NCBI GenBank assembly: GCA_002841295.1
Contig: PHEU01000009.1
Span: 1 to 64,000 of the forward strand
DNA: 64,000 nt
Direction of reading: 5' to 3'
Source: Actinobacteria bacterium HGW-Actinobacteria-6
GTDB lineage: Bacteria; Actinomycetota; Coriobacteriia; Anaerosomatales; Anaerosomataceae
The position numbers and the translations under genes are program-made. Within the stretch, counting starts at the first letter, position 1; the number at the start of each line of letters is the position of its first letter. Below are positions 32,575-61,836 of this stretch, one piece after another. The notes under the pieces are model-generated. The model had not been told where the DNA came from. It saw nothing but the letters and a program-made list of their open reading frames with translations, and ran no database searches.

Positions 32575-33392
32575 GCTCAGAGCCCACGACGCCGCTCATA
32601 TCGATCGTCACTGTGTGCCTCAACGCCGAGGCGTACATCGGTCGCGCGATGGAGTCAGTGCTCGCTCAAGAGTATCCCTCGGTCGAGCACATCATCATCG
32701 ACGGCGGCTCAACGGATGCCACCCTTTCCATCATCGCGGAGCTCGAAGTGCGCTATGCGGGTCGACTCACATGGCTTTCCGAGAAAGACGACGGTCTCTA
32801 CGACGCGATGAACAAAGGTGTCGCTCGCGCACGAGGCGAACTCATCGGCACGCTTAACGCAGACGACCACTACGAGGACGACGCAGTTGCCAGGGTTGCC
32901 TCGGCATATCGCGCGAACCCGACCACCGGGGTCTTCTATGGCGACCTGCGGGCCATCGATGAGTCCGGTACGAGCAATGTGCGATCCGCGCCCGCAGCAG
33001 TGCGTCGCGAGTCACTGCTCGGCGACATGATGCTCTTTCATCCTGCAACGTTCATGACCGCAGCCGTCTACGATTCTCTCGGCGGGTATGACACCCGCTA
33101 TCCGATCGCTGCGGATTACGACTACCTACTCAGGTGTGCCGAGGCCGGTGTTGGGTTCGCACGCGTGGACGGCGTGCTCACCAATTTCTCGGTGCATGGA
33201 GTGAGCAGCACGAACGTGAGAGCGACCGACCGCGATTCGACTCGCGTGCGCATCGCGCATGGCGTGAGCCCGATTGCCGCCTGGGCGCGCTATTTCCGCC
33301 GGGCGCTGGCGTTCGCTACGTACAACCGATTCGCGGGCTCGGCGGCCTTCCGGCGCGCATACAACAGTTACAAGGGTCGCGACCATGCCTGA
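32571..33392 (+). CDS. GT2-family glycosyltransferase
   Basis: Protein of 273 residues with a GT-A fold: ISIVTVCLNAEAYIGRAMES, HIIIDGGSTDATLSII, YDAMNKGVARARGELIGTLNADD (in parts; D-x-D-type metal site in the LNADD motif) and AADYDYLLRCAEAG. The GTG at 32571 overlaps the preceding stop (GTGA). It is a close paralogue of the GT2 domain of the following fusion protein, apparently a tandem duplicate. Sugar specificity is unknown. Confidence 0.92.
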   Translation: MSSEPTTPLISIVTVCLNAEAYIGRAMESVLAQEYPSVEHIIIDGGSTDATLSIIAELEVRYAGRLTWLSEKDDGLYDAMNKGVARARGELIGTLNADDHYEDDAVARVASAYRANPTTGVFYGDLRAIDESGTSNVRSAPAAVRRESLLGDMMLFHPATFMTAAVYDSLGGYDTRYPIAADYDYLLRCAEAGVGFARVDGVLTNFSVHGVSSTNVRATDRDSTRVRIAHGVSPIAAWARYFRRALAFATYNRFAGSAAFRRAYNSYKGRDHA

Positions 33393-42528: not shown

Positions 42529-42554
42529 GCGAGGAAGTGGAAGTCACTTCTCGC
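42529..42554. terminator. Hairpin between convergent glycan genes
   Basis: Arms GCGAGGAAGTG (42529-42539) and CACTTCTCGC (42545-42554) pair with one bulged base around a 5-base loop, at the junction of the convergent gtrA-like and GT-C genes. There is no strong T-run on either strand, so it may act as a weak bidirectional terminator. Confidence 0.4.
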
Positions 42555-44247
42555 CGACCTCGGCACGCAGCGCCGGGTAGTAGGTCCATTCACCCTGCGA
42601 CTGGCCTTGCGCGGAGATGACTTCCACCTCGAAGCCGGCATCCTCTAGTCGCCTCACGAGAGCCCGGGAGTGCATCTCGGCAACCCAGGGATCCGGGAAC
42701 CGGACATGCAGGTTCTCGGCGCCATCAAGCGCCGCCAGCGTCTCTGTGCGAGCGATCGCCCGGTTGCGGTAGTCGTACCCCTGTGCAACGAGCGCCAGTA
42801 GGCCATTCGCGCAGAGAATCACCACGACCGCGATCGCTGCAAGCCGGGCAGCACGACCGCTGCGTCCCTCGGCAGACAGCCCTGCCACCGCAATCAGGAG
42901 CGGGACGAGGAACAAGATCGGGGCGAGCCTGGCCCACCACGACTCGACCATCAGAAGCGTGAGCACGACGGTCGCAATGGTCCCGAAAGCCACGGCTTCA
43001 AGCGGAAGATCGAAACGCACGGTCTTTCGCCGCAGGAGCATGAGCGCCGACAACGCGGCAGCCGCGATCAGAGCGAGGAAGAACAGTGGTCCGTATCCGC
43101 CTCGGCGGGCATCCGGAAACTGAAGTGCCACTAACTCATCGCGCGTCACCGAGAGCGGGTTCTTGAGCCGGTACGGTGCTGCCATCGTCTGGTCGGTCGC
43201 AGTGGATGTCTGCTCGGTAAGTGACATCAGGAACGCGACCGGCGCGGGCACCTCGCGATATGGAACGGGGCGCTGCGTCACGTCGGGCGGATCAGGGACT
43301 CGAGCAAGGTCGGGGCTGAAGAGCGGATAGAACGGATTCCCCTGTTGATACAGGTTCGTGATGTACGGATTGAATCCAACGATGAGTATCCCGAGTACAA
43401 GCGCGACAAGCGGCAGAACAGTCGGCTTCCATGCACGATCAGCGCCGCGCCTCGCTTTCAAAGCGCGCCAAACCGCCGAGCCAAGCACCAGCGCGACCAC
43501 GAACACCAGTCCCGTGAACTTGAGATTCGCAAGCAGCACGGCGGCGGCAACCCCCAGTGTGGGCAGCGACGTCCGAGAGCCGCCTAGATCGATCTTCTCA
43601 GTGCTTTCGGCAACCGCGATCAACACGAGCATCAGCCCGAGGCTGGCAAAGAGCCCGTCCACATAATGTGTGTCAAGCTGAGCGACTGTAACAGGATTGA
43701 GCGCTGCGACTGCTGCCAGGACGTACGCCCAGCTGATCCGGATACCCGGAATCGCCAGGAAGAAGGCGCCGGCCACGCCGAAACTCGCAAGCGCGAACAA
43801 GACCGTGAGAATCTTTCCGTACTCGATATTCCCGGTGAGGGCGTACACGCCGCCCGAGAACACCAATGACGCTTTGGGGTAATGGTCAGCCAGAACATGG
43901 CCGAGGGAAGCCGACATCGGATTGACGCCATCGCCGATCGAGATGGCCGCCGGCTCGTGATACGTCAGGCTGTCATGTGTGTTATCCCAGGAGCCGCCCT
44001 GAATCGCGAGTGCAGCCACCACGACAATTGAAACCACGACGTAGGCCAGCCATAAGCCGCGCGTGTGTTGCCGGAGCACGATCGGAAGCAGCACTCCGAT
44101 GGCCAAGCCGAACGCGAAGCTCATCACACTCAGCGAGACGCCCGCAAGGAACAGCGTCGACTGAAGCAGCACAGGGAGCAGCACGAGTGAGATCGTGAGC
44201 GTGGATATCGACAGCAGCGTCTCCTGGTGAGCGCGCACGTCCTTCAA
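42544..44247 (-). CDS. GT-C membrane glycosyltransferase (GT39/ArnT-like)
   Basis: Protein of about 567 residues with some 12 TM helices. The first external loop carries the acidic motif GGSWDNTHDSLTYHEPAA, in the place of the Asp-containing active site of GT-C enzymes that use polyprenyl-phosphate sugars, and a long loop (VPDPPDVTQRPVPYREVP) lies before the C-terminal helices. I prefer the TTG at 44247, which has AGAGGAG 6 bases upstream; an ATG at 44286 is in frame without such a site. It is preceded by the radical SAM pair on the same strand. Sugar and acceptor are unknown. Confidence 0.8.
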   Translation of the reverse strand: MKDVRAHQETLLSISTLTISLVLLPVLLQSTLFLAGVSLSVMSFAFGLAIGVLLPIVLRQHTRGLWLAYVVVSIVVVAALAIQGGSWDNTHDSLTYHEPAAISIGDGVNPMSASLGHVLADHYPKASLVFSGGVYALTGNIEYGKILTVLFALASFGVAGAFFLAIPGIRISWAYVLAAVAALNPVTVAQLDTHYVDGLFASLGLMLVLIAVAESTEKIDLGGSRTSLPTLGVAAAVLLANLKFTGLVFVVALVLGSAVWRALKARRGADRAWKPTVLPLVALVLGILIVGFNPYITNLYQQGNPFYPLFSPDLARVPDPPDVTQRPVPYREVPAPVAFLMSLTEQTSTATDQTMAAPYRLKNPLSVTRDELVALQFPDARRGGYGPLFFLALIAAAALSALMLLRRKTVRFDLPLEAVAFGTIATVVLTLLMVESWWARLAPILFLVPLLIAVAGLSAEGRSGRAARLAAIAVVVILCANGLLALVAQGYDYRNRAIARTETLAALDGAENLHVRFPDPWVAEMHSRALVRRLEDAGFEVEVISAQGQSQGEWTYYPALRAEVGEK

Positions 44248-44295
44248 TCCGATCTCCTCTTGCTCAGCACGGAAGCCTGGCTGCATCCGGGCGGT

Positions 44296-47649: not shown

Positions 47650-48837
47650 ATGAGGCCGACCATCGTGATCGACGCTCCAACCGACAGCACAGGGCCTTCG
47701 ATTCTGTTTGTTTGCACGGTCGCATCGACCCTGGAAGCATTCTTGCTGCCGTACGCGGATCGACTGCACGGCCGAGGCTGGCACGTCGATGCGCTCGCGC
47801 ACGGCGCTGGCTCGAACTCGCGGATCGCCGGCAGCTTCGATCGGCTGTTCGATATCGGCTGGAGCCGCAACGCGCTCGCCCCGGGAAACCTCTTCGGCCC
47901 AGTGAGGCGCGTTCGCCAAGTCGTGAGCGCCGGCGGCTACGAACTCGTGCACGTCCATACGCCGGTTGCGGCGTTCGTGACCCGATTAGCACTTCGCTCG
48001 ATGGGTGCCACGCGTCCCATCGTGATCTACACCGCACACGGCTTCCACTTCTATAAAGGTGGCGGGAGACTTCGCAATCTCATCTTCCGCTGGCTCGAGA
48101 AGACAGCCGCCACGTGGACCGACTTCATCGTTACGATGAACCAGGAAGACTTCGAAGCTGCGCGTGCCTTCGATGACATCAAGGCCGACCGGGTTCGCTT
48201 CATACCCGGAGTCGGCGTGGACACCGCCCGCTACTCGCCGAGAAGCGCTGCGCCCGAGAGCTCCGATGCGCTTCGCGCCTCGCTTTTCATCCCGCGCGAT
48301 GCATTCGTAGTCACGATCATCGCCGAGCTTGGCGCGGTGAAGCGCCACGCGCATCTCCTCTCGGCACTGGCGCTCGTTGAAGACCCGCGAGTCGTTCTGC
48401 TGATCGTCGGCGAGGGTTCTCTTGAGTCGGAGCTACGTAACCAGGCACAGCGCCTTGGCATTGCCGAGCGAATCAGGTGGGCAGGTTACCGCAGCGACAT
48501 CGCCTCTGTTCTCGGCGCAAGCGACGCACTCGCCTTGGTCTCGGAGCGCGAAGGCCTGAACCGCTCCGTCCTTGAGGCGATGTCGATTGGCATCCCCGTG
48601 ATCGGTACGGCTACACGCGGAATCACCGATGCCGTAGCGCCGGACGCAGGCTGGATCGTCGACAAACATGATGTGTCCGCGCTGGCCGCCGCCATAGACG
48701 AGGCGGCCGCAGCTCCAGATGAAGTATCCCGCCGAGGAGCCACAGGACGCCTGCGCGTCAAAGAACGTTATGCCCTGCCGCTGATCATCGCCGCCTACGA
48801 GGAGTTGTACCGTGAAGCGCTTGCACTCCGCGTATAG
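47650..48837 (+). CDS. GT4-family glycosyltransferase (PglA/EpsD-like)
   Basis: Protein of 395 residues: SILFVCTVASTLEAFLLPYA, YELVHVHTPVAAFVTRLALR, IVIYTAHGFHFYKGGG, FIPGVGVDTARYSPRS, VVTIIAELGAVKRHAHLLSAL and VSEREGLNRSVLEAMSIGIP (E-x7-E). The AHGFHF segment is typical of the EpsD/PglA group, which add the second sugar to an undecaprenyl-diphosphate-linked sugar. I chose the ATG at 47650. It is followed by the PglC-like transferase with a 26-bp overlap. Confidence 0.92.
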   Translation: MRPTIVIDAPTDSTGPSILFVCTVASTLEAFLLPYADRLHGRGWHVDALAHGAGSNSRIAGSFDRLFDIGWSRNALAPGNLFGPVRRVRQVVSAGGYELVHVHTPVAAFVTRLALRSMGATRPIVIYTAHGFHFYKGGGRLRNLIFRWLEKTAATWTDFIVTMNQEDFEAARAFDDIKADRVRFIPGVGVDTARYSPRSAAPESSDALRASLFIPRDAFVVTIIAELGAVKRHAHLLSALALVEDPRVVLLIVGEGSLESELRNQAQRLGIAERIRWAGYRSDIASVLGASDALALVSEREGLNRSVLEAMSIGIPVIGTATRGITDAVAPDAGWIVDKHDVSALAAAIDEAAAAPDEVSRRGATGRLRVKERYALPLIIAAYEELYREALALRV

Positions 48838-49471
48838 CCCCGTGAAACGGCTGCTTGACGTCGTTTCGGCTGCCGTGCTCCTGGTCGTCCTCAGCCCGCT
48901 GCTGCTCGTCGTTGCCGTCGCCATCGCACTCTCGATGGGAACGCCGGTCATATTCCGACAGGCGCGTCCGGGTCTGGGTGGAAGAGTCTTCACCATGTAC
49001 AAGTTCCGCACCATGCGCTCCGCGCCCATGGGGGCTACTCTCGAGCAACTACAGAGAACTGACGCCGACCGAACCACGCAGGTCGGACGATTCCTGCGTT
49101 CGACATCAATGGACGAGCTCCCCGAGCTTGTGAATGTACTGCTCGGCCAGATGAGCGTTGTCGGCCCACGGCCGTTACTGCCCGAGTACCTCGAGAAGTA
49201 CAATCAGGAGCAGGCCCGTCGCCACGATGTGCGACCCGGCATCACGGGCTGGGCCCAGGTCAACGGACGCAACGCCATCTCCTGGGACGAGCGCCTGAAA
49301 ATGGACGTCTGGTATGTCGATAACCGCTCGCTCATCTTGGATGCACGAATCTTGCTGCTGACTATCTCGACGGTCCTCGGTGGCCGGGGCACTGACTCGC
49401 CGAGCGGCGACACACCTGAGCCTTTCAGCGGAAGCTCTGATGAATCAAACGATTGGAACGAACGTGTCTGA
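48812..49471 (+). CDS. Undecaprenyl-phosphate sugar phosphotransferase (PglC/WcaJ-type)
   Basis: Small monotopic phosphoglycosyl transferase that starts glycan assembly by moving a sugar phosphate to undecaprenyl phosphate. The protein has 219 residues: VKRLLDVVSAAVLLVVLSP (re-entrant membrane helix), GTPVIFRQARPGLGG, MYKFRTMRSAP, the catalytic Asp-Glu dyad in STSMDELPELVNVL, and MSVVGPRPLLPEYLEKY and RPGITGWAQVNGRN. The size matches PglC rather than the long WcaJ/WbaP form. GTG start at 48812 or 48842. Confidence 0.94.
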   Translation: MKRLHSAYSPVKRLLDVVSAAVLLVVLSPLLLVVAVAIALSMGTPVIFRQARPGLGGRVFTMYKFRTMRSAPMGATLEQLQRTDADRTTQVGRFLRSTSMDELPELVNVLLGQMSVVGPRPLLPEYLEKYNQEQARRHDVRPGITGWAQVNGRNAISWDERLKMDVWYVDNRSLILDARILLLTISTVLGGRGTDSPSGDTPEPFSGSSDESNDWNERV

Positions 49472-50684
49472 TCTTCTTGCAATCGAAGGCGGAGCTCCGG
49501 TTCGAACGAGCCCCCTGCCCACCTGGCCCTCTCCTGGTGCCGAGGAGATATCTGCCGTCACGGCAGTTCTCACTTCCGGTCGCCTCAACTACTGGACCGG
49601 AGAACAGGGACATCTGCTTGAGCAGGAATTCTCGGCATACCTGGGTCGCGATCGCGCCATCGCCGTGGCAAACGGCACGGTTGCACTCGAACTTGCGTTG
49701 CGCGCATTCGGCATCGGTGCAGGCGACAAGGTGGTCGTCCCGGCAAGAACGTTCATCGCGACCGCGAGCGCTGTTGTCGCAGTGGGTGCGACCCCGATTG
49801 TGTGCGACGTAGACCCGGTGAGTGGCACTATGACCGCAGAGAGCGCCTCGGCAGTGCTCGACGCATCGGTTCGCGCCGTCATTCCGGTGCACCTGGGTGG
49901 ATGGCCCGTCGACTTGGATCCGATCCTCGAGCTCGCCGAGCACCACGATCTCGTAGTCATCGAGGATTGCGCGCAGGCACACGGAGGCACATACCGCGGT
50001 CGGCCGATAGGCGCCGGACCGAGCCACGCGGCTGCGTTCTCGTTTTGTCAGGACAAGATCATCCCCGTCGGTGACGGCGGCCTGGTCGTACTCGACGATG
50101 AGGCCGCGTACACACGGGCTTGGGAGTACAAAGACCACGGCAAGTCGCTGGCCAAGCTCAAAGACCCCGCGTTCATGGACGAACCAGCGTCGTTTCGCTG
50201 GCTGCATGACGAGTTCGGCACGAACTGGCGGCTCGACGAGATGTCCTCGGCGGTAGCGCGCGTGGGCCTGACGAAGCTCCCCTCCTGGCATCACACGCGC
50301 ACCGCTCACGCCCGGCGAATCGCCGAGGGCCTGACGGGAGTACGCGGAATCAGAGTGCTGCTGCCGGGCGACGGCGCGGAGCACGCCTTCTACCGCCTGT
50401 ACGCAACGATTGTCCCGGAAGAACTCACCTCCGGATGGAATCGCGACCGAATCCTTGAGGCGGTACTCGCCGAGGGTGTTCGCATCCAGTACGGATCGTG
50501 TGCCGAGGTATATCGCGAAGGTGCGTTCATCAAGCACGGACTCGGCCCAGCGCAGCGACTCCCGAATGCTGCCCGCTTGGACGAGACCTCGCTCGCGTTC
50601 TTCGTGCACCCCACCCTCGGCAATCAAGATATCGACGACACTGTGACCGCCGTTAGAAAAGTGCTGGGAGTAGCAACATCATGA
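49440..50684 (+). CDS. DegT/DnrJ/EryC1/StrS-family sugar aminotransferase
   Basis: PLP enzyme that aminates keto-sugars. The protein has 414 residues: SGRLNYWTGEQGHLLEQEF, AVANGTVALELALRAFGIG, VVPARTFIATASAVV, VIEDCAQAHGGTYRGRPIG, SFCQDKIIPVGDGGLVVLDD (PLP lysine in this motif) and GTNWRLDEMSSAVARVGL. Placed between a PglC-like transferase and a PglF-like dehydratase, it is the expected PglE-like partner that aminates the 4-keto product. ATG at 49440; a GTG at 49464 is also in frame. Confidence 0.93.
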   Translation: MNQTIGTNVSDLLAIEGGAPVRTSPLPTWPSPGAEEISAVTAVLTSGRLNYWTGEQGHLLEQEFSAYLGRDRAIAVANGTVALELALRAFGIGAGDKVVVPARTFIATASAVVAVGATPIVCDVDPVSGTMTAESASAVLDASVRAVIPVHLGGWPVDLDPILELAEHHDLVVIEDCAQAHGGTYRGRPIGAGPSHAAAFSFCQDKIIPVGDGGLVVLDDEAAYTRAWEYKDHGKSLAKLKDPAFMDEPASFRWLHDEFGTNWRLDEMSSAVARVGLTKLPSWHHTRTAHARRIAEGLTGVRGIRVLLPGDGAEHAFYRLYATIVPEELTSGWNRDRILEAVLAEGVRIQYGSCAEVYREGAFIKHGLGPAQRLPNAARLDETSLAFFVHPTLGNQDIDDTVTAVRKVLGVATS

Positions 50685-52543
50685 ACCCCATGGCATTCCT
50701 TCGTCGGGTACGAGCGGCAGGTCACCTCTGGAGCTCGGCCACGATCGTTCTCGACGTCATCGCGATCGTCGTGTCTACCGCTGCCGCCTACTGGCTCCGC
50801 TTCGAAGGCCTCGTCCCGGCTGAGTTCGCACGCTGGCAGCTGCCGTTGGCCGGCCTGGCGATCGTCGTATACATGACGATCTTCTCGGCGTTTGGCCTCT
50901 ACCGGCTGCTGCTCCGCTACGTGGGCGTCGATACGCTGCTTAGACTCTTCGCATCCACCTTGCTCGGCATGGCACTGCTCATGGCCGTCGACTTTTTTGC
51001 CCCGAGCAGCTCGAACATGCGCCCGGTACCCGTTGGTGTATTGCTCATCCAGGCGATTCTGGTCTTTCTCGGCGCGTCGGCCGTGCGCCTCACGGCACGC
51101 GTCTTCTTGCATATGCGTGCATCCCGCAGGGGCACGGGTCGCAGGGTTCTCGTCGTAGGTGCCGGCAGCGCTGGCTCCCTCCTTCTGCGCGAGATACAGT
51201 CGCGACCGCATCTCGGCCTGCTCGTTGTAGGCTTCCTGGACGACGACCGGACATTGCTCGGCAAGACCATCAACGGCGTCTCCGTACTTGGCTCGACAAG
51301 CCAACTCGGCGCTGTAGTCTCTCGGCATGCCGTGGAAGAGATATTCGTCGCGCTACCATCTGCTCCACAAGAGACCGTCAGGCGCATCCTGAACGCCGCT
51401 GCAGACGCAGACGTGCAAACCCGCGTTATGCCCCCGATCGTCATCGCAAAGGGCTCAGTGAGCCTTAGAGACCTCCGCAGCGTGGACGTCGAAGACCTCC
51501 TGGGACGCGAACCCACAGAGATCGACGTCGAGCAGGTACGCTCCACCATCGCCGGCGCAGTCGTTGCGGTCACAGGCGCGGGTGGCTCGATCGGCTCCGA
51601 GCTGTGCCGGCAGATCATCCAGTTGGATCCGAAACACCTGGTCCTCATCGAGATCGACGAGACGCGCCTCTACGAGCTGTACCTAGAACTGGAATCAATC
51701 GCCCCTGGGATCGCAACGATGTGCGTATGTGATATCCGGGACGGTCAAAGACTCGACACGCTGTTTGCCGTGCACAGCCCCGACCTGGTCTTGCACGCCG
51801 CAGCGTACAAGCACGTCCCTCTCATGGAGGACGCGCCCGCCGAGGCCGTCAAGACGAATGTCCACGGAACGCTCATGGTGCTTGAAGCGTGCGAACGTCA
51901 CTCGGTCGGGCGCTTCGTGCTCATCTCGACCGACAAAGCAGTCGCACCGGCAAACGTCATGGGACTCACCAAGTCACTTGCCGAGTCAGAGATGCTGAGC
52001 GCAACACGCCGCAGCCGACTGAGTGCTGTTGCCGTGCGTTTCGGCAACGTGCTCGCAAGCCGCGGGTCCGTGGTTCCGATCTTCCAGGACCAACTCCGCC
52101 GAGGCGGACCGCTCACGGTCACACATCCCGATGTGACCCGCTACTTCATGACGATTCCGGAAGCCGCGCGCCTGGTCCTGCAGGCGCAGGCAATCGGTGA
52201 GCCGGGCGACATCTTCGTTCTTGAGATGGGCGAACCTGTGAGAATCGTGGATCTAGCGAGGAAGATGATCGCGCTCTCAGGCGTACCGGCAGCAATAGAG
52301 TTCACGGGACTGCGCCCCGGGGAGAAGCTTCACGAGGAGCTCGTGACCGCGACCGAGGCTCTCCTTCCAACCACACGCACGAACATCTTGCGTGTCGATC
52401 GTGTGCGCGTTCCCGATGCGTCGTTCGACAAGAACATCCTCGAGCTGATCGCAGCTGCCAGTGCCGCTGACGAGCCGGGGATGTGGTCGGCTATCGGCAC
52501 GCTGGCTCCAGAATTCGCCACGCGAACGCGCGGAGCCTACTGA
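50681..52543 (+). CDS. Membrane nucleoside-diphosphate sugar 4,6-dehydratase (PglF/CapD type)
   Basis: Protein of 620 residues. Four N-terminal TM helices (about 15-130) are followed by a CoA-binding-like Rossmann domain (RVLVVGAGSAGSLLLREI) and the short-chain dehydrogenase domain with VTGAGGSIGSELCRQII, HAAAYKHVPLMEDAPAEAV, and STDKAVAPANVMGLTKSLAE, in which Met replaces the usual catalytic Tyr as in PglF/FlaA1 enzymes. It likely makes a UDP-4-keto-6-deoxy-hexosamine for the adjacent aminotransferase. It converges with the ligase gene, overlapping it by 7 bp. Confidence 0.94.
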   Translation: MNPMAFLRRVRAAGHLWSSATIVLDVIAIVVSTAAAYWLRFEGLVPAEFARWQLPLAGLAIVVYMTIFSAFGLYRLLLRYVGVDTLLRLFASTLLGMALLMAVDFFAPSSSNMRPVPVGVLLIQAILVFLGASAVRLTARVFLHMRASRRGTGRRVLVVGAGSAGSLLLREIQSRPHLGLLVVGFLDDDRTLLGKTINGVSVLGSTSQLGAVVSRHAVEEIFVALPSAPQETVRRILNAAADADVQTRVMPPIVIAKGSVSLRDLRSVDVEDLLGREPTEIDVEQVRSTIAGAVVAVTGAGGSIGSELCRQIIQLDPKHLVLIEIDETRLYELYLELESIAPGIATMCVCDIRDGQRLDTLFAVHSPDLVLHAAAYKHVPLMEDAPAEAVKTNVHGTLMVLEACERHSVGRFVLISTDKAVAPANVMGLTKSLAESEMLSATRRSRLSAVAVRFGNVLASRGSVVPIFQDQLRRGGPLTVTHPDVTRYFMTIPEAARLVLQAQAIGEPGDIFVLEMGEPVRIVDLARKMIALSGVPAAIEFTGLRPGEKLHEELVTATEALLPTTRTNILRVDRVRVPDASFDKNILELIAAASAADEPGMWSAIGTLAPEFATRTRGAY

Positions 52544-54393
52544 GTCGCCAGCAACTGCTCGGCACGTTCGATGTAGGCTGCGGTGTACGGATATGGTGCA
52601 CCCCACGTTCGCGCATCATCCAGGACAGCGCCAACCTCCACTGCGTCCCCCGATACAAGCGCCACGTGCAGGCGTTCGGCGACCAAAGAAGGCATCAACG
52701 GCAGCCGCGACGCAGCCTCGTCCAGCATTCCCCGCTCCCACGTAAGGTCGGTGCGACCGGTTCGCTCGGCCTGGGTTGCCGAATACGCGACGAAGTTCAC
52801 CAGATTCGGCGCAAAATCACGCTGAAGTGTCGGCGCCGTCTCAACCGCACGTTGCGCGCGAGAGAGTGCCTCATCATCTGCCGAGAGCAGCAACTGCGTT
52901 TCAAGCAACCGTCGCTGCGTTAGCGGGTGCTGCGGCACTATCGCGAGCGCACTCTCATAGTTGCTCACGGTCGTCACGACATCCTGCGATGGAGCGGTGT
53001 ACGCCTGCCATTCACCCACCCCCAGCCAAACACTCGCGATCATCAGCACGATGCCAACAGCGGCAATAGAACCTCGCCACGCCTTCGTGGCTGGTGCAGT
53101 GTCGTCTCGGCGGGAGGTGACAAGCGGAGCGATGGCGACTCCTGCGGCTGCGGCGCCGAGCAATCCGATCGGGAACACGACCGGATTGACCATGAGCGCG
53201 AACAGCGAGGCAACGAATCCGGCTGCAAGCGCGGTGCGCAGCCCACCGGTGCCATCAGCGACCTTCAGACGTCGCAGCAAGGCTCTTGCCCATACGAACC
53301 CGAGGACCAGGAATGCCACAAGGCCTGCCACGCCGAGACGTGTGAGTACCTCCCAAAGCAAAGCGTGAGGCGACTGCGGGCTGAAGACGGTTGGATCAGC
53401 ATTGCCTTCAGCGTCAGCGCCGTACTGCAGCGCCTCAGGAGCGAGGTACTCTACCGCGGCAATACGGTAGCCGGAGGGCCCGTAGCCAAACAGCGGCTTA
53501 TCCAGGAACATCGCCTGGGCACCCTCCCACATCTGCGCGCGCCCTCTTACATTCCTATCGATCGACCCCGCGCTCGTGACGATGCCCGACGCTCCGAAAA
53601 CCGGAACCTGAACGACGAGCAGCGCCGCTACCATGCTCGCGGCCAAAGCGATCGCAAGCCGCGGAAGCGCCCGAGTAAGGCCGGTCTTCGCCCGCCAGAG
53701 TGCAGGTTGCGCCGCAACCGATGCGGCGAGCGCGAAGATCACCGCGAGTGTCCCCATCGCGGATGCTGAGAACACACCGAGTGAAACCGCGATGACCGCG
53801 CTGACGGCCAGCCACACCACACGCCGATGGCCGCTGGCACGCAGTGCGAGAGCGATTCCCATCGGAAGCGTCACGATCAGCGCAGTGATGCTGTACGCAG
53901 TCGTCCCGAACACACGATTAACGCCGACGGTGATCTGCTGAAACGCCAACACCACCGAGAGAACTGCACCGATGATCGCGAGTACGCCGACCGCTCGCCA
54001 CACATTCTCGGACGTCCAGCGCACGCCCGCGGCCAGGAAGAACACCAGAGGGAAGGTGAGCCAGAGCAACAGCGGCATATTGCCGAAGAGGTCATAGAAG
54101 GCCACTTGGAACCACGAACCGCCGAGAATGAACGAGATCGCCACGACGGCGATCAGGGCTGCGAGCGCCCTGTTCACACGCCGGTCAGGCATCCCAAACG
54201 GCACAAAGCCCAGGCCGACAGCCATGGCCCAGGCTGCCGCCGACAACGAAACGAGCGCTCTGGCGATCGGCATCGGGGGCAGCGTCGTCACGAGCCACGC
54301 ACCTGGCGCCAAGAAAGCAATGAGCATGAATGTGGTGGTGGCCCACCTGCCGTGCGTGTCAGGTACCTGGGCCGCGAGACTTCCGGTTCTCAC
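52537..54393 (-). CDS. O-antigen ligase/PglL-like (Wzy_C family) membrane protein
   Basis: Protein of 618 residues with some 12 TM helices (to about 440) and a C-terminal helical, TPR-like extracytoplasmic tail (about 455-618; AIVPQHPLTQRRLLETQLLL, ALSRAQRAVETAP). The Wzy_C signature is the long loop with RGRAQMWEGAQAMFLDKPLFGYGPSGYR (in parts) and SPQSPHALLWEVLTRLG (conserved His). Family members are WaaL ligases, Wzy polymerases and PglL-type protein O-oligosaccharyltransferases. The GTG at 54393 overlaps the cytochrome stop as GTGA, so it is coupled to the cytochrome operon rather than to the convergent glycan genes. Confidence 0.85.
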   Translation of the reverse strand: MRTGSLAAQVPDTHGRWATTTFMLIAFLAPGAWLVTTLPPMPIARALVSLSAAAWAMAVGLGFVPFGMPDRRVNRALAALIAVVAISFILGGSWFQVAFYDLFGNMPLLLWLTFPLVFFLAAGVRWTSENVWRAVGVLAIIGAVLSVVLAFQQITVGVNRVFGTTAYSITALIVTLPMGIALALRASGHRRVVWLAVSAVIAVSLGVFSASAMGTLAVIFALAASVAAQPALWRAKTGLTRALPRLAIALAASMVAALLVVQVPVFGASGIVTSAGSIDRNVRGRAQMWEGAQAMFLDKPLFGYGPSGYRIAAVEYLAPEALQYGADAEGNADPTVFSPQSPHALLWEVLTRLGVAGLVAFLVLGFVWARALLRRLKVADGTGGLRTALAAGFVASLFALMVNPVVFPIGLLGAAAAGVAIAPLVTSRRDDTAPATKAWRGSIAAVGIVLMIASVWLGVGEWQAYTAPSQDVVTTVSNYESALAIVPQHPLTQRRLLETQLLLSADDEALSRAQRAVETAPTLQRDFAPNLVNFVAYSATQAERTGRTDLTWERGMLDEAASRLPLMPSLVAERLHVALVSGDAVEVGAVLDDARTWGAPYPYTAAYIERAEQLLATQ

Positions 54394-55580
54394 CGTGGGC
54401 TGCTCTCGACCGCCAACTCCGTGTGGCACAGGTCTGTGCAGTAATCGCGCCCTCTAACGAACGCCATACTCTGATGGCATGTGTTGCAGCGGACTTCGTC
54501 GGAGGTCTTGTGACCTTCGGCAAGTCCGGCGTCATGGCCACGCCCGAGATATTCGCTATGACACTTGGTACAGGGATTACGGGTCGCAGTGTGGCAACGC
54601 CCGCACGTCTTGCCGCCGTTGTACCAGATGTCGACAACGCCGGCGCGGGCATGCGCGTAGACCATGAACTTCTGCGTGTGAGGCATGCGAACGCCGTGAC
54701 AGGTGTCGCATTCCTTCTTCTCGTCGTGGCATCCACCACATGTCACTTCGGATATCTGCACCTTGGCCAACCCGGTGGCCGTGGAACGCGCGGCCGCAGC
54801 AGCGGTTCTATCGTGACACGTGGCGCACTCGCTCGAAGCAGTGACCGAGTCGTGGCACTGCAGGCATGGATTCATACCAGCATTGTGCGCCCCAACGACA
54901 CCCTCATTGGGCTTGTGGCAGTCGAGGCATTCGGCAGATGCTGCCAACGGCTCAGCGTGCGACATCTTGAGCCCGCGTGCCTTGTTGGTTACAACACCCT
55001 TGAGTTCGGACGTGTGACACGCCGAGCAGGAGTCAGAAGTCGCCTTTCCATAATCTCCCTGAGCCTGAAGGTCGGTCCAGGCGTCAATCATATGGAGCGC
55101 ACGCGCTGTGCCGCCGATCGTGAAGTGCCCGAGCGCGCCTCCGGGCTCATGGCAGTCAACGCACGCAACGCTGGCGTGAGAGTCCGCAGCAGCAGTGGTA
55201 GTGACATGAGGATTGTCCTCGTGGCAACTCAGGCAGACAGCTGAGTTGGACGTCGCGACATTTGAGACGATGAAAACGACAGCGACGACAGCGACCCATA
55301 TCCCGGCTGTAATCAGAGTACGCCTTGGATCGCGAGGTCGTAAAACAGCGGCCGCTTTGCGCTTTGCTCCTGCTTTGACGGCTGCGACCTTGCCGACCGC
55401 ATCCTCGTCTGAAGATTCCTCCTCAGCACCCATCACAAAGATGATGGCCACAACCAGAAGAATCAGCAGCAACATGCCAATGGCGCCGTAAAGCAAGAAT
55501 GCGGCCGTCAGGTTCGAGGTGGGATCAGTGAGCAGGATCGATATCTGCTCGGGAATCCGCGAGAGGGTGTCAAGATCCAC
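54390..55580 (-). CDS. Membrane-anchored multiheme c-type cytochrome (11 CxxCH + 1 CX3CH)
   Basis: Protein of 396 residues with two N-terminal TM helices (about 27-52 and 88-108). The cytoplasmic segment between them is Lys/Ala-rich. The extracytoplasmic part has eleven CxxCH haem sites (CLSCH, CVDCH, CSACH, CLDCH, CLQCH, CATCH, CGGCH, CDTCH, CGRCH, CTKCH, CNTCH) and a terminal CTDLCH, a CX3CH variant. The first sites after the TM helix resemble NapC/NirT quinol dehydrogenases. It probably takes electrons from the membrane to the outer face. GTG start overlapping the next cytochrome's stop by one base. Confidence 0.93.
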   Translation of the reverse strand: MDLDTLSRIPEQISILLTDPTSNLTAAFLLYGAIGMLLLILLVVAIIFVMGAEEESSDEDAVGKVAAVKAGAKRKAAAVLRPRDPRRTLITAGIWVAVVAVVFIVSNVATSNSAVCLSCHEDNPHVTTTAAADSHASVACVDCHEPGGALGHFTIGGTARALHMIDAWTDLQAQGDYGKATSDSCSACHTSELKGVVTNKARGLKMSHAEPLAASAECLDCHKPNEGVVGAHNAGMNPCLQCHDSVTASSECATCHDRTAAAAARSTATGLAKVQISEVTCGGCHDEKKECDTCHGVRMPHTQKFMVYAHARAGVVDIWYNGGKTCGRCHTATRNPCTKCHSEYLGRGHDAGLAEGHKTSDEVRCNTCHQSMAFVRGRDYCTDLCHTELAVESSPR

Positions 55581-56548
55581 TAACTAGCACCCCCTTTGCC
55601 GGCACTGTAAGAAGATGCGCTTCCTATGGCTCCGCCGGGGTGCACATGCTTCTCGTGGCAAGTCGTGCAATCGGACGCGGCATGGCAACGATTGCAGAGA
55701 TCTCGATTGGCCTCAGCAGCGTCGGAGTGGCCGCGTGTGAACGTGCGAGGGTGTGGCATGTCCAGGCCGTGGCAATCATCACACATCGCCTGCTCGTGGC
55801 AGGTAAAGCATTTGGCTCCCGGGCTAGATGCGATCGCTGAGTGCTTCTCAACGAACTTCGCTGCGTGAGGGAGTCCCGGACCGTGACACTTGTCGCACGA
55901 TGCAGCGGTATGACATGCCGAGCATGTGAGCGAGTTGCCCATACCGTGCGTCTTCTCCCACTGAGGTCCGTGGGTAATAGCGAAGACACCCGAAGTGATT
56001 CTCTCTGCGGGTCCCCTGCCGTCGTGACAGAGGTCGCACTGAGCAGACTCCTGCGGTGAATGACACTCAAGGCACGTGTCCATATCGTAGACTCGAACCC
56101 ACTCCGACGACACGCCGTGCGCGACTGATGAGTGGCAGTCGGTGCATGAGGCCCCGACTGCGCAGACGCTGTGGTCAACCCTGATGCCCTTGGCTTGAAC
56201 GACTGCCTCGCCGATCATCTCGTGACACTTCAGGCAGCGGCTGTCCGGAACCGCAGCCCACCCTCGGCCATCCCCACTGACTATCGGCAGGACCATATGG
56301 AATGCCTGGCGGTAGCCGAAGGAAACACGTGCGGCGACCGCTGTGGAAACGTGGCAGTCAACACACGCCACAGTCGAGTGAGTTGCGCTCTGGGTCTGCT
56401 CCACGAAGGTGCTCTCATCATGGCATGCCACACAGCCGGGAAGCGTCGTCGCGAAATAGACGCCCGACAAGAGCAGGGCAGCCACGGGCACAACGACCAT
56501 GATCCAGATTACCCAAGATCGAACCCTTGGGACGGCACCTGAGCCCAC
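55580..56548 (-). CDS. Membrane-anchored multiheme c-type cytochrome (12 CxxCH)
   Basis: Protein of 322 residues with one N-terminal TM anchor (VWIMVVVPVAALLLSGVYF region, about 12-33) followed at once by TTLPGCVACHDES, as in NapC/NrfH-type proteins. Twelve CxxCH sites: CVACH, CVDCH, CLKCH, CTDCH, CLECH, CDLCH, CSACH, CDKCH, CFTCH, CDDCH, CNRCH and CTTCH. GTG start at 56548 with AAGGAT upstream. With the next gene it forms a two-cytochrome membrane module, probably a quinol-oxidising relay. The acceptor is not known. Confidence 0.94.
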   Translation of the reverse strand: MGSGAVPRVRSWVIWIMVVVPVAALLLSGVYFATTLPGCVACHDESTFVEQTQSATHSTVACVDCHVSTAVAARVSFGYRQAFHMVLPIVSGDGRGWAAVPDSRCLKCHEMIGEAVVQAKGIRVDHSVCAVGASCTDCHSSVAHGVSSEWVRVYDMDTCLECHSPQESAQCDLCHDGRGPAERITSGVFAITHGPQWEKTHGMGNSLTCSACHTAASCDKCHGPGLPHAAKFVEKHSAIASSPGAKCFTCHEQAMCDDCHGLDMPHPRTFTRGHSDAAEANRDLCNRCHAASDCTTCHEKHVHPGGAIGSASSYSAGKGGAS

Positions 56549-56763: not shown

Positions 56764-57792
56764 TTAGTGATCGAGGCCGATACCCAGCAGACCAGTGCTG
56801 TCACGGTGGCACTTGAGGCAAGTACCGTCCATTGCCTTCTCGAGTGATGAGGCAAGGCCCGTGGTGTCGGCAGCGCCGGCATACGAGGCACGAGTCATCC
56901 AGAGATAGGCACGACCGCTCGTGTTGTCGCTGGTGCCATACGCGGTCTCAGAGTGCGGGAACGTGTAGCCGCTGGTGACACCGTCGTCAGTCTGGTCGTG
57001 GCAGCTTACGCAACCGGTGACCGCGACGTACGAACCGGCGCCAGAGGTGGCGACAGCCGAGCTCATGTGACCCGTCTTGGCGTACATGTTGTCCGAGCCG
57101 TACACACCTTCACGAACCTCGGAGTAGCCCTTCTTGACCACTGCGAGCAAGGTCTGAACGTGGCAACCATCCTGGTTACAGGTGTAACCGGTACGGACGG
57201 CTGAACGAGTCGCCTCGGTCCACGTCGACGCAACGTCGGCGTTGAGGTCGTCGGTCGTGATGCCGGACGATGCCGACACAGACGCGGCGGTCGCAAGGCC
57301 GGTGTCAGCCCTGGAGCTGAGCAGCTTGGCGGCAACGATCTTGTAGTCGGAGCCATTTGCACCATGCGGGCTCGAAACGTGGCACGTGCGGTTCAGGCAG
57401 CTCGTGAGAGTACCAGAGCCGTGAGGACCGCCGGACTGCCAGCTGACGAGCTTGGTGGTGACGGTACCCGTACCGGCAGCGTGGCAGCCACCGCAGGTCG
57501 CGACTGAAGCGTTCAGCAGCTTGACGCCGTCGGCCTTGGCGCGGTGAACGGAGTGGCAGATGCCGCACTTGGCGGTCGTGGTCTGGTAGTTAGCGTGCAC
57601 GCCCGGGTTGGACGGGTTGGTGCCGATGGAGCTGAGCAGCGTCGCGGTGCTGTTCACGCTACCTGCAGCGGATCCCCAGCTGTAGTAATCATAGTCGGCG
57701 TTCCAAGTCTTAGCAGCAGTTGCACTTGCAGTGGCCGCAAAAGAAAGTGTGAGGGCGACAGCAAGAACAACAACAATCAGAGTCTTTTTCAT
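56764..57792 (-). CDS. Exported multiheme cytochrome c (4 CxxCH + 2 CX4CH)
   Basis: Protein of 342 residues with a clear Sec signal peptide (MKKTLIVVVLAVALTLSFAA, cleavage near ASA-TA). It starts with a conserved NADYDYYSWGSAAGSV segment. The haem sites are CGICH, CGGCH, CVSCH and CLKCH, plus two CX4CH motifs (CLNRTCH and CNQDGCH). There is no wall anchor or TM helix after the signal, so it is secreted or held by partners. ATG at 57792 has AAGGAG 5 bases upstream; an in-frame ATG at 57837 also has a strong site (GGGAGGTGA). It is the shorter paralogue of the 60366-61757 protein. Confidence 0.92.
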   Translation of the reverse strand: MKKTLIVVVLAVALTLSFAATASATAAKTWNADYDYYSWGSAAGSVNSTATLLSSIGTNPSNPGVHANYQTTTAKCGICHSVHRAKADGVKLLNASVATCGGCHAAGTGTVTTKLVSWQSGGPHGSGTLTSCLNRTCHVSSPHGANGSDYKIVAAKLLSSRADTGLATAASVSASSGITTDDLNADVASTWTEATRSAVRTGYTCNQDGCHVQTLLAVVKKGYSEVREGVYGSDNMYAKTGHMSSAVATSGAGSYVAVTGCVSCHDQTDDGVTSGYTFPHSETAYGTSDNTSGRAYLWMTRASYAGAADTTGLASSLEKAMDGTCLKCHRDSTGLLGIGLDH

Positions 57793-58037: not shown

Positions 58038-59306
58038 CTACTGCTCGCCAAGTTCAGTATCGGAAATCTGAGGGGAAGTCTTAAGCTCTGTTAGTTCACG
58101 CCTCTTGCGCGCCCGGCGAACGACCAGCCATACGATGATAGCAAGCAAGAGCAGTAAGAACGGATACACGCACGCACGGAGCGGCCCGGTCATTGCACGC
58201 CGAACTGCAGAGACGACTCCGTTGCCCGCAGAAGACCCTGGCAGACGCACGATCTGGATGCGGTTGTTCAGCGAGTCTGCCACGGTGAACCAATCGCGCT
58301 CGCTGTCGTACGTAACGCTGACCGGGTAGAAGAACTGCCCGTCATCCGGACCGACCTCGCCGTACTTGGCGACGAATGAACCGTCGGTGGGATCAAACAC
58401 CGCCAGCGCGCAGTCAAACATGTCAGCAACTACGATGCGACCGGCGCCATCGAGTGTGATGCCGAGAGGCAGTTGCATCGCATCGTCGCCGCTGAGTGCG
58501 GCGTCAGTCACGTCTTGGGTAACCAGACTGCCGTCGGTCATCTCGGCACCATTGGCCGGCTTACCGGTACGGACGATCCACAGCCGGTTGCCCTCAGGGT
58601 CATAGGCACTTAGGCGGTTGTTGTAAGAGTCCGACACGAAGATGTTGCCGTTCTCTGCTATGGCTACGCCATGCACATAATCGAACTGGTCATCGGCCTT
58701 TCCGCGAGAGCCAAGCACCTTGATAGGTGTGCCCTCTTTGTCGAGAATCGCGAAACCCGCCACGGTGCCCACAACGATACGATCGGAACTCACTGCGACC
58801 GACGTCGGCTCAGGGATCCCAAACGAGCCAGCGTCTTCGTTGTTGGTAGTAAGGACGCGAATGGCACCCTCTGTAAGCTCACACGCGTAGATCGTACCGT
58901 CAGTATCAATCGCGATTCTGGATGGGGAGAAGAGCGGCAAGTCATCCGGACCAGAGAGCGATCCGAGATAGCGGCCGTCAGCAGTAAAGTGAATGAGTGC
59001 CTGATGCTGACCATCCGTAACCCAGATAGAGCCGTCCGGTGCGGTGGCTGCTGACTGGGCGCGTGCGAGTTGGTCGTCTTCAGCATCGCTCATCCCATAG
59101 ATAGAGCGAACCCAGGTGATCCCGCCCGTCTCAACTGCGACATTGCTGGTGCGAGGAACTGATATTAGGTTGAACAGCAGATACGTCACAAGTCCAAGCA
59201 GAAGCATCAGCACGACGAGAACAAGTGCAAGGATCCGACGACCGCGACGCGACCGCACCGCCCGGCCTGTTGTCACGTCGGCGCCTACGTAGGCGGTGTC
59301 ACTCAT
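58038..59306 (-). CDS. Membrane-anchored NHL-repeat beta-propeller protein
   Basis: Protein of 422 residues with an N-terminal TM helix (about 24-50) and a C-terminal TM helix (about 378-398). Between them lies an extracytoplasmic six-bladed propeller with NHL-type blades: SAATAPDGSIWVTDGQHQAL, PSRIAIDTDGTIYACEL, VHGVAIAENGNIFVSDSYNNRL, PLGITLDGAGRIVVADMFDCAL and PVSVTYDSERDWFTVADSLNNRIQIV (in parts). Its ATG overlaps the TPR gene stop (ATGA). NHL propellers bind proteins or glycans. Within a cytochrome cluster it may organise or assemble the exported haem proteins. Confidence 0.85.
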   Translation of the reverse strand: MSDTAYVGADVTTGRAVRSRRGRRILALVLVVLMLLLGLVTYLLFNLISVPRTSNVAVETGGITWVRSIYGMSDAEDDQLARAQSAATAPDGSIWVTDGQHQALIHFTADGRYLGSLSGPDDLPLFSPSRIAIDTDGTIYACELTEGAIRVLTTNNEDAGSFGIPEPTSVAVSSDRIVVGTVAGFAILDKEGTPIKVLGSRGKADDQFDYVHGVAIAENGNIFVSDSYNNRLSAYDPEGNRLWIVRTGKPANGAEMTDGSLVTQDVTDAALSGDDAMQLPLGITLDGAGRIVVADMFDCALAVFDPTDGSFVAKYGEVGPDDGQFFYPVSVTYDSERDWFTVADSLNNRIQIVRLPGSSAGNGVVSAVRRAMTGPLRACVYPFLLLLLAIIVWLVVRRARKRRELTELKTSPQISDTELGEQ

Positions 59307-60097
59307 CGCTTCGCTCCTATCGCGTCAAGTCCTGCGATTGCCTCTGCACTATTCGGGATGAACTTGAGCGCTGCCCGGAAGTCCTTCTCCGCAGCATCTT
59401 CATTCCCGACCTTGATGTGAGCATTGCCCCGATCAATCAAGATGTCAGCAGCGGTGCTGTCATCCTTGAGGTAGATATCGTACTGCTCGATGGCTTGGTC
59501 CCACTCACCAAGATCTCGATATGCGTACGCCTTGATAAGAATCGCAACGCCGAAGTTGTCAGACATGCCGTCTAGATTGGCCACGCGTGCGCTCTCTCCG
59601 CCGGCTGCGATGCGGCCGTCGTAGGACTCCTGTATCTGCGTCATCGCTTTGTCGGCAGCAGCTATCGCCTCGTTGTACTTGCCTTGCGCGCTCAGCAGCC
59701 GCGCCTCGGCAAGCGTAAAGTCTGCGCCGATGGAGTCATCGACGGTACTACGGCCGTCTTCGATTGCACGACGAGCGCGACCGTACTCCCCTACTCCGAT
59801 CAGCGATGAGATGTACTCGTTCCAAACGTTCACGTCCGCCGTGCCATTAGCCACCTCGGTGCCGGAGACGAGCAGATTCTTCTCGGCAAGCGTACGTGGG
59901 CCCCGGTTGTTGCCGGCGCCAACCACGCCCGTGATCATGACACTGACGATTGCAACAAGGAACAAGATCACCAAGCCGCTGGCCACGTACGACATTGTGC
60001 GAACGACTGGGTCGTCAAATACGCCCGGCCTACGAACAGCCCGCTTAGACGACAGGTCGTCCGATTGTGGTTCCTGAGCGAAATCTGTTTCAGACAT
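59303..60097 (-). CDS. Membrane-anchored TPR protein
   Basis: Protein of 264 residues with one TM helix (about 37-60, VASGLVILFLVAIVSVMITG) and an extracytoplasmic helical region with tetratricopeptide repeats (ARRAIEDGRSTVDDS, ARLLSAQGKYNEAIAAADKA, AYAYRDLGEWDQAIEQYDIY, GNAHIKVGNEDAAEKDFRAA, in order). I chose the ATG at 60097, with GGAGG 8 bases upstream. It is translationally coupled to the NHL protein. Such a scaffold could resemble NrfG/CcmH-type TPRs of cytochrome maturation, but there is no direct evidence. Confidence 0.85.
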   Translation of the reverse strand: MSETDFAQEPQSDDLSSKRAVRRPGVFDDPVVRTMSYVASGLVILFLVAIVSVMITGVVGAGNNRGPRTLAEKNLLVSGTEVANGTADVNVWNEYISSLIGVGEYGRARRAIEDGRSTVDDSIGADFTLAEARLLSAQGKYNEAIAAADKAMTQIQESYDGRIAAGGESARVANLDGMSDNFGVAILIKAYAYRDLGEWDQAIEQYDIYLKDDSTAADILIDRGNAHIKVGNEDAAEKDFRAALKFIPNSAEAIAGLDAIGAKR

Positions 60098-60365
60098 CGA
60101 CGAGACCTCCATCACTACAACCAGATGCGCGGTGCCACGAAGTGGTACGCGAACGCACGCTAGTGTACTTGATTTGAATTGGCGTGCAAGAGCGCAGCCG
60201 CCGTTACCCACGTGACCCGCGGCAACCTTCAAGCAGGGGTTATTAAGCAAGACTAATGCCGAGAACCGGAGTGCAGGAATTCTGTTGCAGAACTTCCTTC
60301 TCCGTGACACGCACGTCTGCAGCCAAGGGGATTGGCTACGGTGCCAATGAGCCGTCCGTCGGCTT
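60098..60365 (-). other. Intergenic gap upstream of the TPR-NHL pair
   Basis: These 268 bp contain the likely promoter at 60162-60189 and several short inverted repeats, including GGTGCCACGAAGTGGTAC near 60131-60148. No terminator with a T-run is seen after the 10-haem cytochrome, so some read-through is possible. Confidence 0.4.
60162..60189 (-). promoter_or_regulatory. Sigma-70-type promoter of the TPR-NHL operon
   Basis: Minus strand: -35 TTGCAC (60189-60184), 16-bp A/T-rich spacer, -10 TACACT (60167-60162), followed by a leader of about 60 nt to the ATG at 60097. Confidence 0.5.
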
Positions 60366-61757
60366 CTACCTTGTCAGGCCGATACCCAGCAGACCAGTGC
60401 TGTCACGGTGGCACTTGAGGCAAGTACCGTCCATTGCCTTCTCGAGTGATGAAGCAAGGCCCGTGGTGTCGGCAGCGCCGGCATACGAGGCACGAGTCAT
60501 CCAGAGATAGGCACGACCGCTCGTGTTGCTGCTGGTGCCATACGCGGTCTCAGAGTGCGGGAACGTGTAGCCGCTGGTGACACCGTCGTCAGTCTGGTCG
60601 TGGCAGCTTACGCAGCCGGTGACCGCGACGTACGAACCGGCACCAGAGGTGGCGGCAGCCGAGCTCATGTGTCCCGTCTTGTTGTACATATCACCTGAGC
60701 CGTAGACACCCTCGCGCTCCTCGGCGTAGCCCTTCTTGACCACTGCGAGCAGGGTCTGAACGTGGCAACCATCCTGGTTACAGGTGTAACCGGTGCGGAC
60801 TGCCGAACGCGTGGCCTCGGTCCATGTCGACGCAACGTCGGCGTTGAGGTCCGCGACCGTGATGCCGGAAACGGACGACGAGGCAACGGCGGCGGCAAGA
60901 ACGCTGTCAGCATTCGAGCTCAGGAGCTTGGCGGCGACGATCTTGTACTGCGAGGCACCGGCACCGTGCGGGCTTGATGCATGGCACGAGCGCGTTGCGC
61001 AGTCTGCCAGCGTCCCAGAATGGTGGGGACCGCCGGACTCCCAGCTGATCAACTTGGAGGTGACCGTTCCCGTACCGGCAGCATGACATCCGGAACACGT
61101 TGCAACCGTCGCGTCGAGTAGCTTGACGCCATTCGCCCTAGCGCGATGAACCGAGTGGCAGATGCCGCACTTGGCGGTGGTGGTCTGATAGTTGGCGTGA
61201 ACGCCCGGGTTCGTCGGGTTTGCGCCAACCGAACCCAACACAGCACCGTCTTGGCCCACAGCACCCCAGCTGTAGTAATCCATCAAGCCCCAAGACATGC
61301 GTGCGACGCTATGCGAGGCGCCAGCCTGGAATACGTTCAACATGCCACTTGCGTGACAGGAGTTGCAGTCAACGCTGTCGAAGATCGTGATACTCGTGAA
61401 CCCGTAAGGACCGTGCGAGAACGGATATGCCCCATCATGGCACTCGTTGCATTGGGTAGTGCCGCTTACCCAATCTCCGTCATGCGAGCCACCATCACCA
61501 TCATGGGGCATTGGGAATGGACCGGGCACCGCAGAGTCCTCCCACGGGTGACAGGTGAAACACGAGGCGTCATCGTCAGTAGCAGGATGCGCCGAACGAG
61601 CCTGCGGGTGGCACGAAACACACTCGTCGGAGCTATAGACCGCTTCTCCGAGAGCTGTGGCCGGAAGAAGCATCACGCCAGCTAGCAGCACGAGTACTCC
61701 TGCGAGATAGACCTGCGGTCGAAAACAACCAAATGACAAGCTGCGTGATATACGCAT
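60366..61757 (-). CDS. Exported multiheme cytochrome c (8 CxxCH + 2 CX4CH)
   Basis: Protein of 463 residues with a signal peptide (VYLAGVLVLLAGVMLLPATA region, about 18-37). An N-terminal domain with four haem sites (CVSCH, CFTCH, CNECH, CNSCH) is followed by a C-terminal domain of about 310 residues that is almost the same as the 56764-57792 protein: CGICH, CSGCH, CATRSCH, CNQDGCH, CVSCH, CLKCH. Two of the ten motifs are CX4CH. It ends without an anchor. It probably receives electrons from the membrane cytochromes and passes them outward. ATG at 61757; it lies 79 bp after leuC. Confidence 0.93.
   Translation of the reverse strand: MRISRSLSFGCFRPQVYLAGVLVLLAGVMLLPATALGEAVYSSDECVSCHPQARSAHPATDDDASCFTCHPWEDSAVPGPFPMPHDGDGGSHDGDWVSGTTQCNECHDGAYPFSHGPYGFTSITIFDSVDCNSCHASGMLNVFQAGASHSVARMSWGLMDYYSWGAVGQDGAVLGSVGANPTNPGVHANYQTTTAKCGICHSVHRARANGVKLLDATVATCSGCHAAGTGTVTSKLISWESGGPHHSGTLADCATRSCHASSPHGAGASQYKIVAAKLLSSNADSVLAAAVASSSVSGITVADLNADVASTWTEATRSAVRTGYTCNQDGCHVQTLLAVVKKGYAEEREGVYGSGDMYNKTGHMSSAAATSGAGSYVAVTGCVSCHDQTDDGVTSGYTFPHSETAYGTSSNTSGRAYLWMTRASYAGAADTTGLASSLEKAMDGTCLKCHRDSTGLLGIGLTR
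60377..60862. repeat. Long direct repeat shared by the two exported cytochrome genes (copy 2 of 56775-57260)
   Basis: The 3' halves of the two cytochrome genes are nearly identical at DNA level: 60377-60662 and 56775-57060 differ at only about half a dozen positions. Similarity falls further toward the 5' ends. The pattern suggests a recent duplication or continuing gene conversion. Confidence 0.85.
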
Positions 61758-61836
61758 GATGCCGATCCAATCCCTCGCCAACCCAACAGCCAAGAACAGC
61801 TGCGGCTAAATCTAAGTGTATTTCCCCTAGAGCATC

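Follow-up and report, generated by a model that had tools for sequence, protein, structure and literature searches.

The window, the whole 64,000-nucleotide stretch of contig PHEU01000009.1 of Actinobacteria bacterium HGW-Actinobacteria-6 analysed here, carries on its minus strand a gene cassette transcribed in the order TPR, NHL, C6, C12, C11, LIG1 (Table 1). C12 and C11 overlap by one base, and C11 runs into the start of LIG1, a ligase of the Wzy_C/WaaL fold. The twelve haem sites of C11 comprise eleven CXXCH motifs and one CX3CH, and hydropathy predicts two N-terminal transmembrane helices (residues 32-50 and 88-106) with the haem domain outside. The original prediction spoke of extracellular cytochromes, a description that suits the hexahaem protein C6 only, C11 and C12 being membrane-anchored by hydropathy. 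C6 starts at the MKK, a conserved upstream Gly probably being a ribosome-binding site translated as codons. The place of its ten-haem paralogue in the cassette varies among relatives. These two secreted multihaem proteins and a 15-haem protein from elsewhere in the genome (L130:212-1705) end alike: beyond the last haem, all three have a C-terminal motif of approximately the form (V/I)G(I/L/V)(T/D)(Y/H/F)-stop (alignment A2, columns 740-751).

Table 1. Features of the cassette and of the convergent sugar genes, in window coordinates.
Feature	Position	Strand	Evidence
C6 paralogue, ten haem sites (8 CXXCH + 2 CX4CH)	60366..61793	-	
TPR protein, one TM helix, cassette member	59303..60310	-	domain search, hydropathy
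NHL beta-propeller protein, N- and C-terminal TM helices, cassette member	58038..59306	-	
C6, secreted hexahaem cytochrome (4 CXXCH + 2 CX4CH), signal peptide	56764..57789	-	
C12, 12-CXXCH cytochrome, one N-terminal TM anchor, kept in the cassette	55580..56548	-	
C11, 12-haem-site cytochrome, overlaps ligase start (GTGA)	54390..55580	-	
C11 Ser-Pro-Arg codons (CH-x7-SPR-stop), proposed recognition/acceptor tail	54393..54401	-	conservation
LIG1, Wzy_C/WaaL-fold ligase, 618 aa	52537..54393	-	
PF02719 4,6-dehydratase	50681-52543	+	
DegT aminotransferase	49380-50684	+	
PF02397 sugar-phosphate transferase, PglC-like	48812-49471	+	

Converging on LIG1 from the plus strand is a sugar-nucleotide and initiation set (48812..52543) which lies within a longer run of glycosyltransferase genes and is kept beside the ligase in several relatives. 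Both the Pgl-like character of this set and its orientation, opposed to a ligase that shares the strand of the cytochromes, are thus as originally described. Further into the window, positions 33274-35823 form one 849-residue frame with a GT2 domain at its start; a genome search gave a Wzx flippase match (PF01943) at 34306-35154 within it, a match not listed by hmmscan of the ORF. Positions 42544-44286 encode a 580-residue protein that matches no Pfam family and has some 12 hydrophobic segments; it adjoins two radical-SAM genes and an ATP-grasp gene.

The junction itself reads ...AGC AGC CCA CGG TGA, and the letters at 54390-54393 confirm the predicted start of the ligase on the last bases of the cytochrome, its GTG at 54393 overlapping the C11 stop codon (GTGA). 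The LIG1 frame stays open for 12 further codons upstream, inside C11, but the GTG is the likely start because in relatives the ligase begins at the stop codon of the cytochrome or shortly beyond it. A search of 27 family genomes and 398 genomes of the class (Coriobacteriia) found LIG1 in 14 genomes of the order, namely our own and thirteen at 42-50% identity, and in four more distant class genomes at 31-35% identity. In all 18 a C11 homologue precedes LIG1 on the same strand (that of G044 is cut by a contig end), with a gap of about -4 to +37 bp within the order. As regards other classes, the single match at E <= 1e-20 among 396 genomes sampled from the phylum was our own genome, and a strict-pattern contig scan gave matches confined to Coriobacteriia/Actinobacteria records. 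The C11-ligase adjacency is not due to chance, because 18 of 18 well-matching Coriobacteriia keep the junction while the neighbouring sugar genes vary. Conservation of the junction had been suggested as a check on the glycosylation idea, with ligases that follow polysaccharide genes only as the contrary case; no such ligase was seen in the well-matching clade.

The core cassette TPR-NHL-C6-C12-C11, often with leuA-leuC upstream, recurs across the order both with and without LIG1. Divergence of LIG1 is correlated with that of C11 (r 0.75, Mantel p 0.0005) and the C11 tree places the order's ligase-positive members in a single group (support 0.99). Two ligase-free C11s are nested in this group: that of G015, which has leuD- and leuB-like genes after it on its own strand, and that of a second cassette in G017, a genome with LIG1 elsewhere. 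More distant ligases (25-27% identity) in G059 and G056 adjoin no cytochromes. The junction may have an older or parallel counterpart in G106 (L133:8971-12093), where a C11 homologue ending ...CHPGLRS-stop comes immediately before a ligase that shares 27% identity with LIG1. G082 contains a tandem partial duplication (L070:8440-9170), made up of the 5' end of a truncated ligase and another copy of the C11 3' end with its SPR tail, and in G050 the opposite strand carries, between C6 and C12, another, unrelated Wzy_C gene (L068:5529-7493).

The Wzy_C identity proposed for the ligase was borne out: LIG1 matches PF04932 at 37-42 bits, against a curated cut-off of 31.7, and with E values up to 10 a match is present in 17 of the 18 members. 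The suggestion of a PglL-type enzyme fared differently, since under the same E limit neither PglL_A (PF15864) nor Wzy_C_2 is matched in any of the 18, and LIG1 as a PglL proper is rejected. LIG1 consists of a membrane domain (about residues 13-465) and a C-terminal TPR domain (459-618). Its AF2 model (pLDDT 84.8, pTM 0.87) superimposes on WaaL (7tpg_B) with a Z-score of 22.9 and a deviation of 4.2 Å over 362 residues at 14% identity, while residues 459-618 of the model match TPR structures with Z about 11. There are thirteen predicted transmembrane helices, so that, by parity and assuming a cytoplasmic N-terminus as in WaaL, the TPR domain is predicted to be extracytoplasmic, like the catalytic loop. 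Arg285 and His343 of the external loop, aligned with and by that alignment equivalent to WaaL Arg288 and His338, are invariant in 18 of 18. By alignment alone, an equivalent of WaaL Arg215 is missing in 17 of 18, being present only in G094; the same alignment finds it in three of our genome's four other Wzy_C proteins. The TPR region is conserved like the membrane core (50.5% mean pairwise identity within the order vs 44-49%). Its residues Thr545-Gly546-Arg547, Asp549, Trp552 and Glu553 are invariant in the order ligases and mostly different in the class-level ones; that they bind the C11 tail is a speculation.

That tail is distinctive. Ligase-positive C11s have, after the His of the last haem site, exactly seven residues, most of them variable, before Ser-Pro-Arg and the stop codon. 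When 69 genomes of the order, presumably all contained in the class search for LIG1, were scanned for the tail pattern, LIG1 was present in 14, the CH-x7-SPR-stop tail in 14 and both in 13. The exceptions are G015, which has the tail with no ligase found, and G050, which has a ligase and the tail ASRF. Other matches to the tail pattern were taken as chance, most being without AGY or a true stop; the one clean-looking match, in G143:C78, is not in a haem ORF. The SPR ending occurs in none of 17 ligase-free C11 homologues outside the clade and is absent from the four class-level ligase-positive C11s. Within the clade the three SPR columns need 0, 1 and 1 parsimony changes, against a mean of 5.4, and SPR is among the four best-conserved of 310 non-haem triplets in C11, two of the other three containing His; the three residues just before it vary freely. 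All four synonyms are used for Pro (CCA/CCC/CCG/CCT) and for Arg (CGA/CGC/CGG/CGT), and selection therefore acts on the C11 protein. A cause at the DNA level, in the form of a ribosome-binding site for the ligase, is unlikely given this synonymous variation and the persistence of the tail in G015 and in the second G017 cassette, where no ligase follows. The co-occurrence of tail and ligase could be due to shared descent from one ancestral clade.

Our genome contains five Wzy_C genes, of which two lie beside multihaem or NHL genes and three in loci without multihaem genes. The second of the two, LIG2, is again a Wzy_C-TPR ligase, non-orthologous to LIG1 (about 22-29% identity over part of its length), and is found on contig C58 (L130:212-7807 = G000:C58:212-7807) in a single run with a WbaP-like initiating transferase, a Rex-type repressor, TPR and NHL proteins and a 15-haem cytochrome. 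Homologues occur in 66 of the 69 order genomes and, in 20 sampled loci, TPR and/or NHL genes adjoin in 17 and a protein with at least three haem motifs in 16. Across the order (L130, L166-L184) the LIG2 operon includes a protein having 15 or 7 haem motifs. Its composition suggests that glycan synthesis is under redox control and coupled to electron transfer. Two separate loci thus associate a Wzy_C-TPR ligase with an NHL/multihaem module, which makes a functional connection between glycan and electron conduit more likely; this says nothing as to whether the glycan is on the cytochrome or around it.

Together, the conserved order of ligase after cytochrome and the SPR tail suggest that a sugar chain is attached to an electron-transfer cytochrome, so that the original association, with its glycosylation reading, is partly supported. 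We tentatively regard LIG1 as a dedicated O-oligosaccharyltransferase, resembling TfpO/TfpM, that would act on C11 with the tail as its recognition or acceptor site; this is our best explanation, its likelihood falling a little short of even. The nearby sugar genes would build an undecaprenyl-linked glycan, subsequently flipped outward; the extracytoplasmic TPR domain of LIG1 would recruit C11; and the membrane domain would transfer the glycan to this protein, the simplest acceptor being the Ser of Ser-Pro-Arg. The purpose of the glycan might be protection and insulation of the conduit, or its retention in the wall. What is observed is the gene order, the fold as predicted and the conservation; every functional step beyond these we infer. 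The TfpO/TfpM enzymes (PMC12645811) and the glycosylated OmcS/OmcE filaments (PMC9473688) lend protein glycosylation plausibility short of proof. Several observations speak against it: the tail without a ligase in G015 and the ligase with ASRF in G050, the class-level C11s without SPR, the G106 junction with its distant ligase and, again, no SPR, the missing Arg215 equivalent, the distant ligases of G059 and G056 without cytochromes, and a sugar locus that usually adjoins LIG1 and fits a polysaccharide role too.

Such a polysaccharide role is the foremost alternative, a real possibility if on balance a doubtful one. LIG1 would ligate a polysaccharide of the surface or matrix to wall, lipid or chain, or polymerise it, and the electron-transfer machinery would be embedded in that polysaccharide, the operon reflecting co-regulation only. 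A parallel is found in Geobacter, in which the xap exopolysaccharide serves as an anchor for cytochromes. In G077 the next glycosyltransferase gene overlaps the stop codon of the ligase, sugar genes follow the ligase on the same strand in G050, G143, G082 and G075, Wzx-type flippases lie near several cassettes, and the LIG2 family has an initiating sugar transferase on one side and Rex/NHL/multihaem genes on the other, all of which fit this role. In favour of the C11 scheme, sugar genes are denser beside ligase-positive cassettes (3.3 per 10 kb, 35 in 105 kb of flank, at 12 of 14 cassettes) than beside ligase-free ones (0.73 per 10 kb, 13 in 179 kb, at 5 of 16), a count biased toward relatives of the window, from which the probe set was taken; three of those five ligase-free cassettes have other Wzy_C genes nearby. 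Against the polysaccharide role, the ligase-C11 adjacency is constant and the kind of sugar gene is not: it changes by lineage, the genus and some others having a set of diNAcBac-like type, G050 and G075 having ManC and GDP-mannose dehydratase. An acceptor-specific ligase would show just such a constant cytochrome and a variable glycan, and the polysaccharide alternative leaves the SPR tail and the TPR domain unexplained.

Alternatively, LIG1 might glycosylate another exported protein of the cassette (hexahaem, NHL or TPR) in the manner of the OmcE and OmcS filaments, which are known to be glycosylated (PMC9473688). The secreted hexahaem is indeed rich in Ser and Thr, at 24.6% in this window and 16-25% overall, so that the Ser/Thr/Ala-rich segments invoked originally do exist. 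As an argument for an acceptor they fail, and Ser/Thr enrichment was rejected as such a signal: the mature hexahaem averages 20.1% Ser plus Thr in cassettes with the ligase and 20.3% in those without. The tail of C11 suggests itself, on conservation, as the better acceptor candidate. For C6 as an OmcS/OmcE-like filament subunit, a sequence comparison with the PDB gave no match to any solved structure, and its AF2 model (pLDDT 49) was too poor for structure search. Only C11 directly adjoins the ligase everywhere and has a conserved tail, making modification of another cassette protein quite improbable. Synteny without function, the cassette merely sitting between leu genes and a sugar locus in a region where sugar genes are common, is very improbable and largely refuted by an adjacency that persists across the class despite proteins only 30-50% identical, by ligase-free cassettes mostly having no sugar genes either, and by the same kind of association at a second, unrelated ligase.

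Returning to C11 as the substrate, a fuller picture, which we consider unlikely in its entirety, would be C-terminal O-glycosylation of a respiratory multihaem cytochrome in a monoderm, with the LIG1 TPR domain recognising the tail, the glycan on the SPR Ser, and LIG2 making glycan attachment general and redox-regulated. The host lineage (Anaerosomatales, OPB41) is presumably monoderm, judging from PMC9686372. Modification of C11, if true, would widen both the substrate range (to a cytochrome) and the phylogenetic range (to Coriobacteriia) of dedicated O-oligosaccharyltransferases, point to a class of enzyme that might account for the glycans observed on cytochrome filaments, and hint at the means by which an electron conduit is held or insulated in the wall of a cell lacking an outer membrane. 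The hypothesis comes down to one predicted residue, Ser394 of C11.

Among known systems, the OmcS and OmcE filaments resemble the present proteins as multihaem cytochromes of extracellular electron transfer; theirs carry glycans (PMC9473688), whereas here a glycan is a candidate only, Geobacter is Gram-negative, and C6 lacks a structural counterpart by sequence. The multihaem clusters described from Anaerosomatales (OPB41), of the same class, encode multihaems of quinol-oxidising and of MtrA-like type, and one of the clusters has a Rex repressor (PMC9686372); the text of that paper contains neither 'glycosyl' nor 'polysaccharide' and reports no ligase link for its clusters. LIG1 shares with the O-antigen ligase WaaL its predicted fold and the Arg288/His338-equivalent residues, and differs in mostly lacking the Arg215 equivalent, in its added TPR domain and in that a lipid A-core acceptor is not expected in Coriobacteriia. 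With PglL it has in common PF04932, the conserved external-loop Arg and His and, near some members, diNAcBac-like initiation genes; unlike PglL, it is without PglL_A or Wzy_C_2 and is apparently tied to one operon rather than general. O-oligosaccharyltransferases of this superfamily are widespread in Gram-negative species, and the dedicated classes listed modify pilins or pilin-like proteins (PMC12645811). TfpO (PilO) and TfpM, of Gram-negative type IV pilin systems, are Wzy_C proteins without PglL_A or Wzy_C_2 that modify the C-terminal residue of a pilin encoded beside them (PMC12645811). LIG1 differs from these in its candidate substrate, a multihaem cytochrome rather than a pilin, in its extra C-terminal TPR domain, in its presumed monoderm host class, and in the position of the Ser, which is the last residue of the TfpO pilin and the third from last in C11. 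Nevertheless, LIG1 fits TfpO/TfpM better than PglL, because it has Wzy_C only, adjoins one putative dedicated substrate gene throughout, and would be expected to modify a Ser at or near the C-terminus of that candidate substrate.
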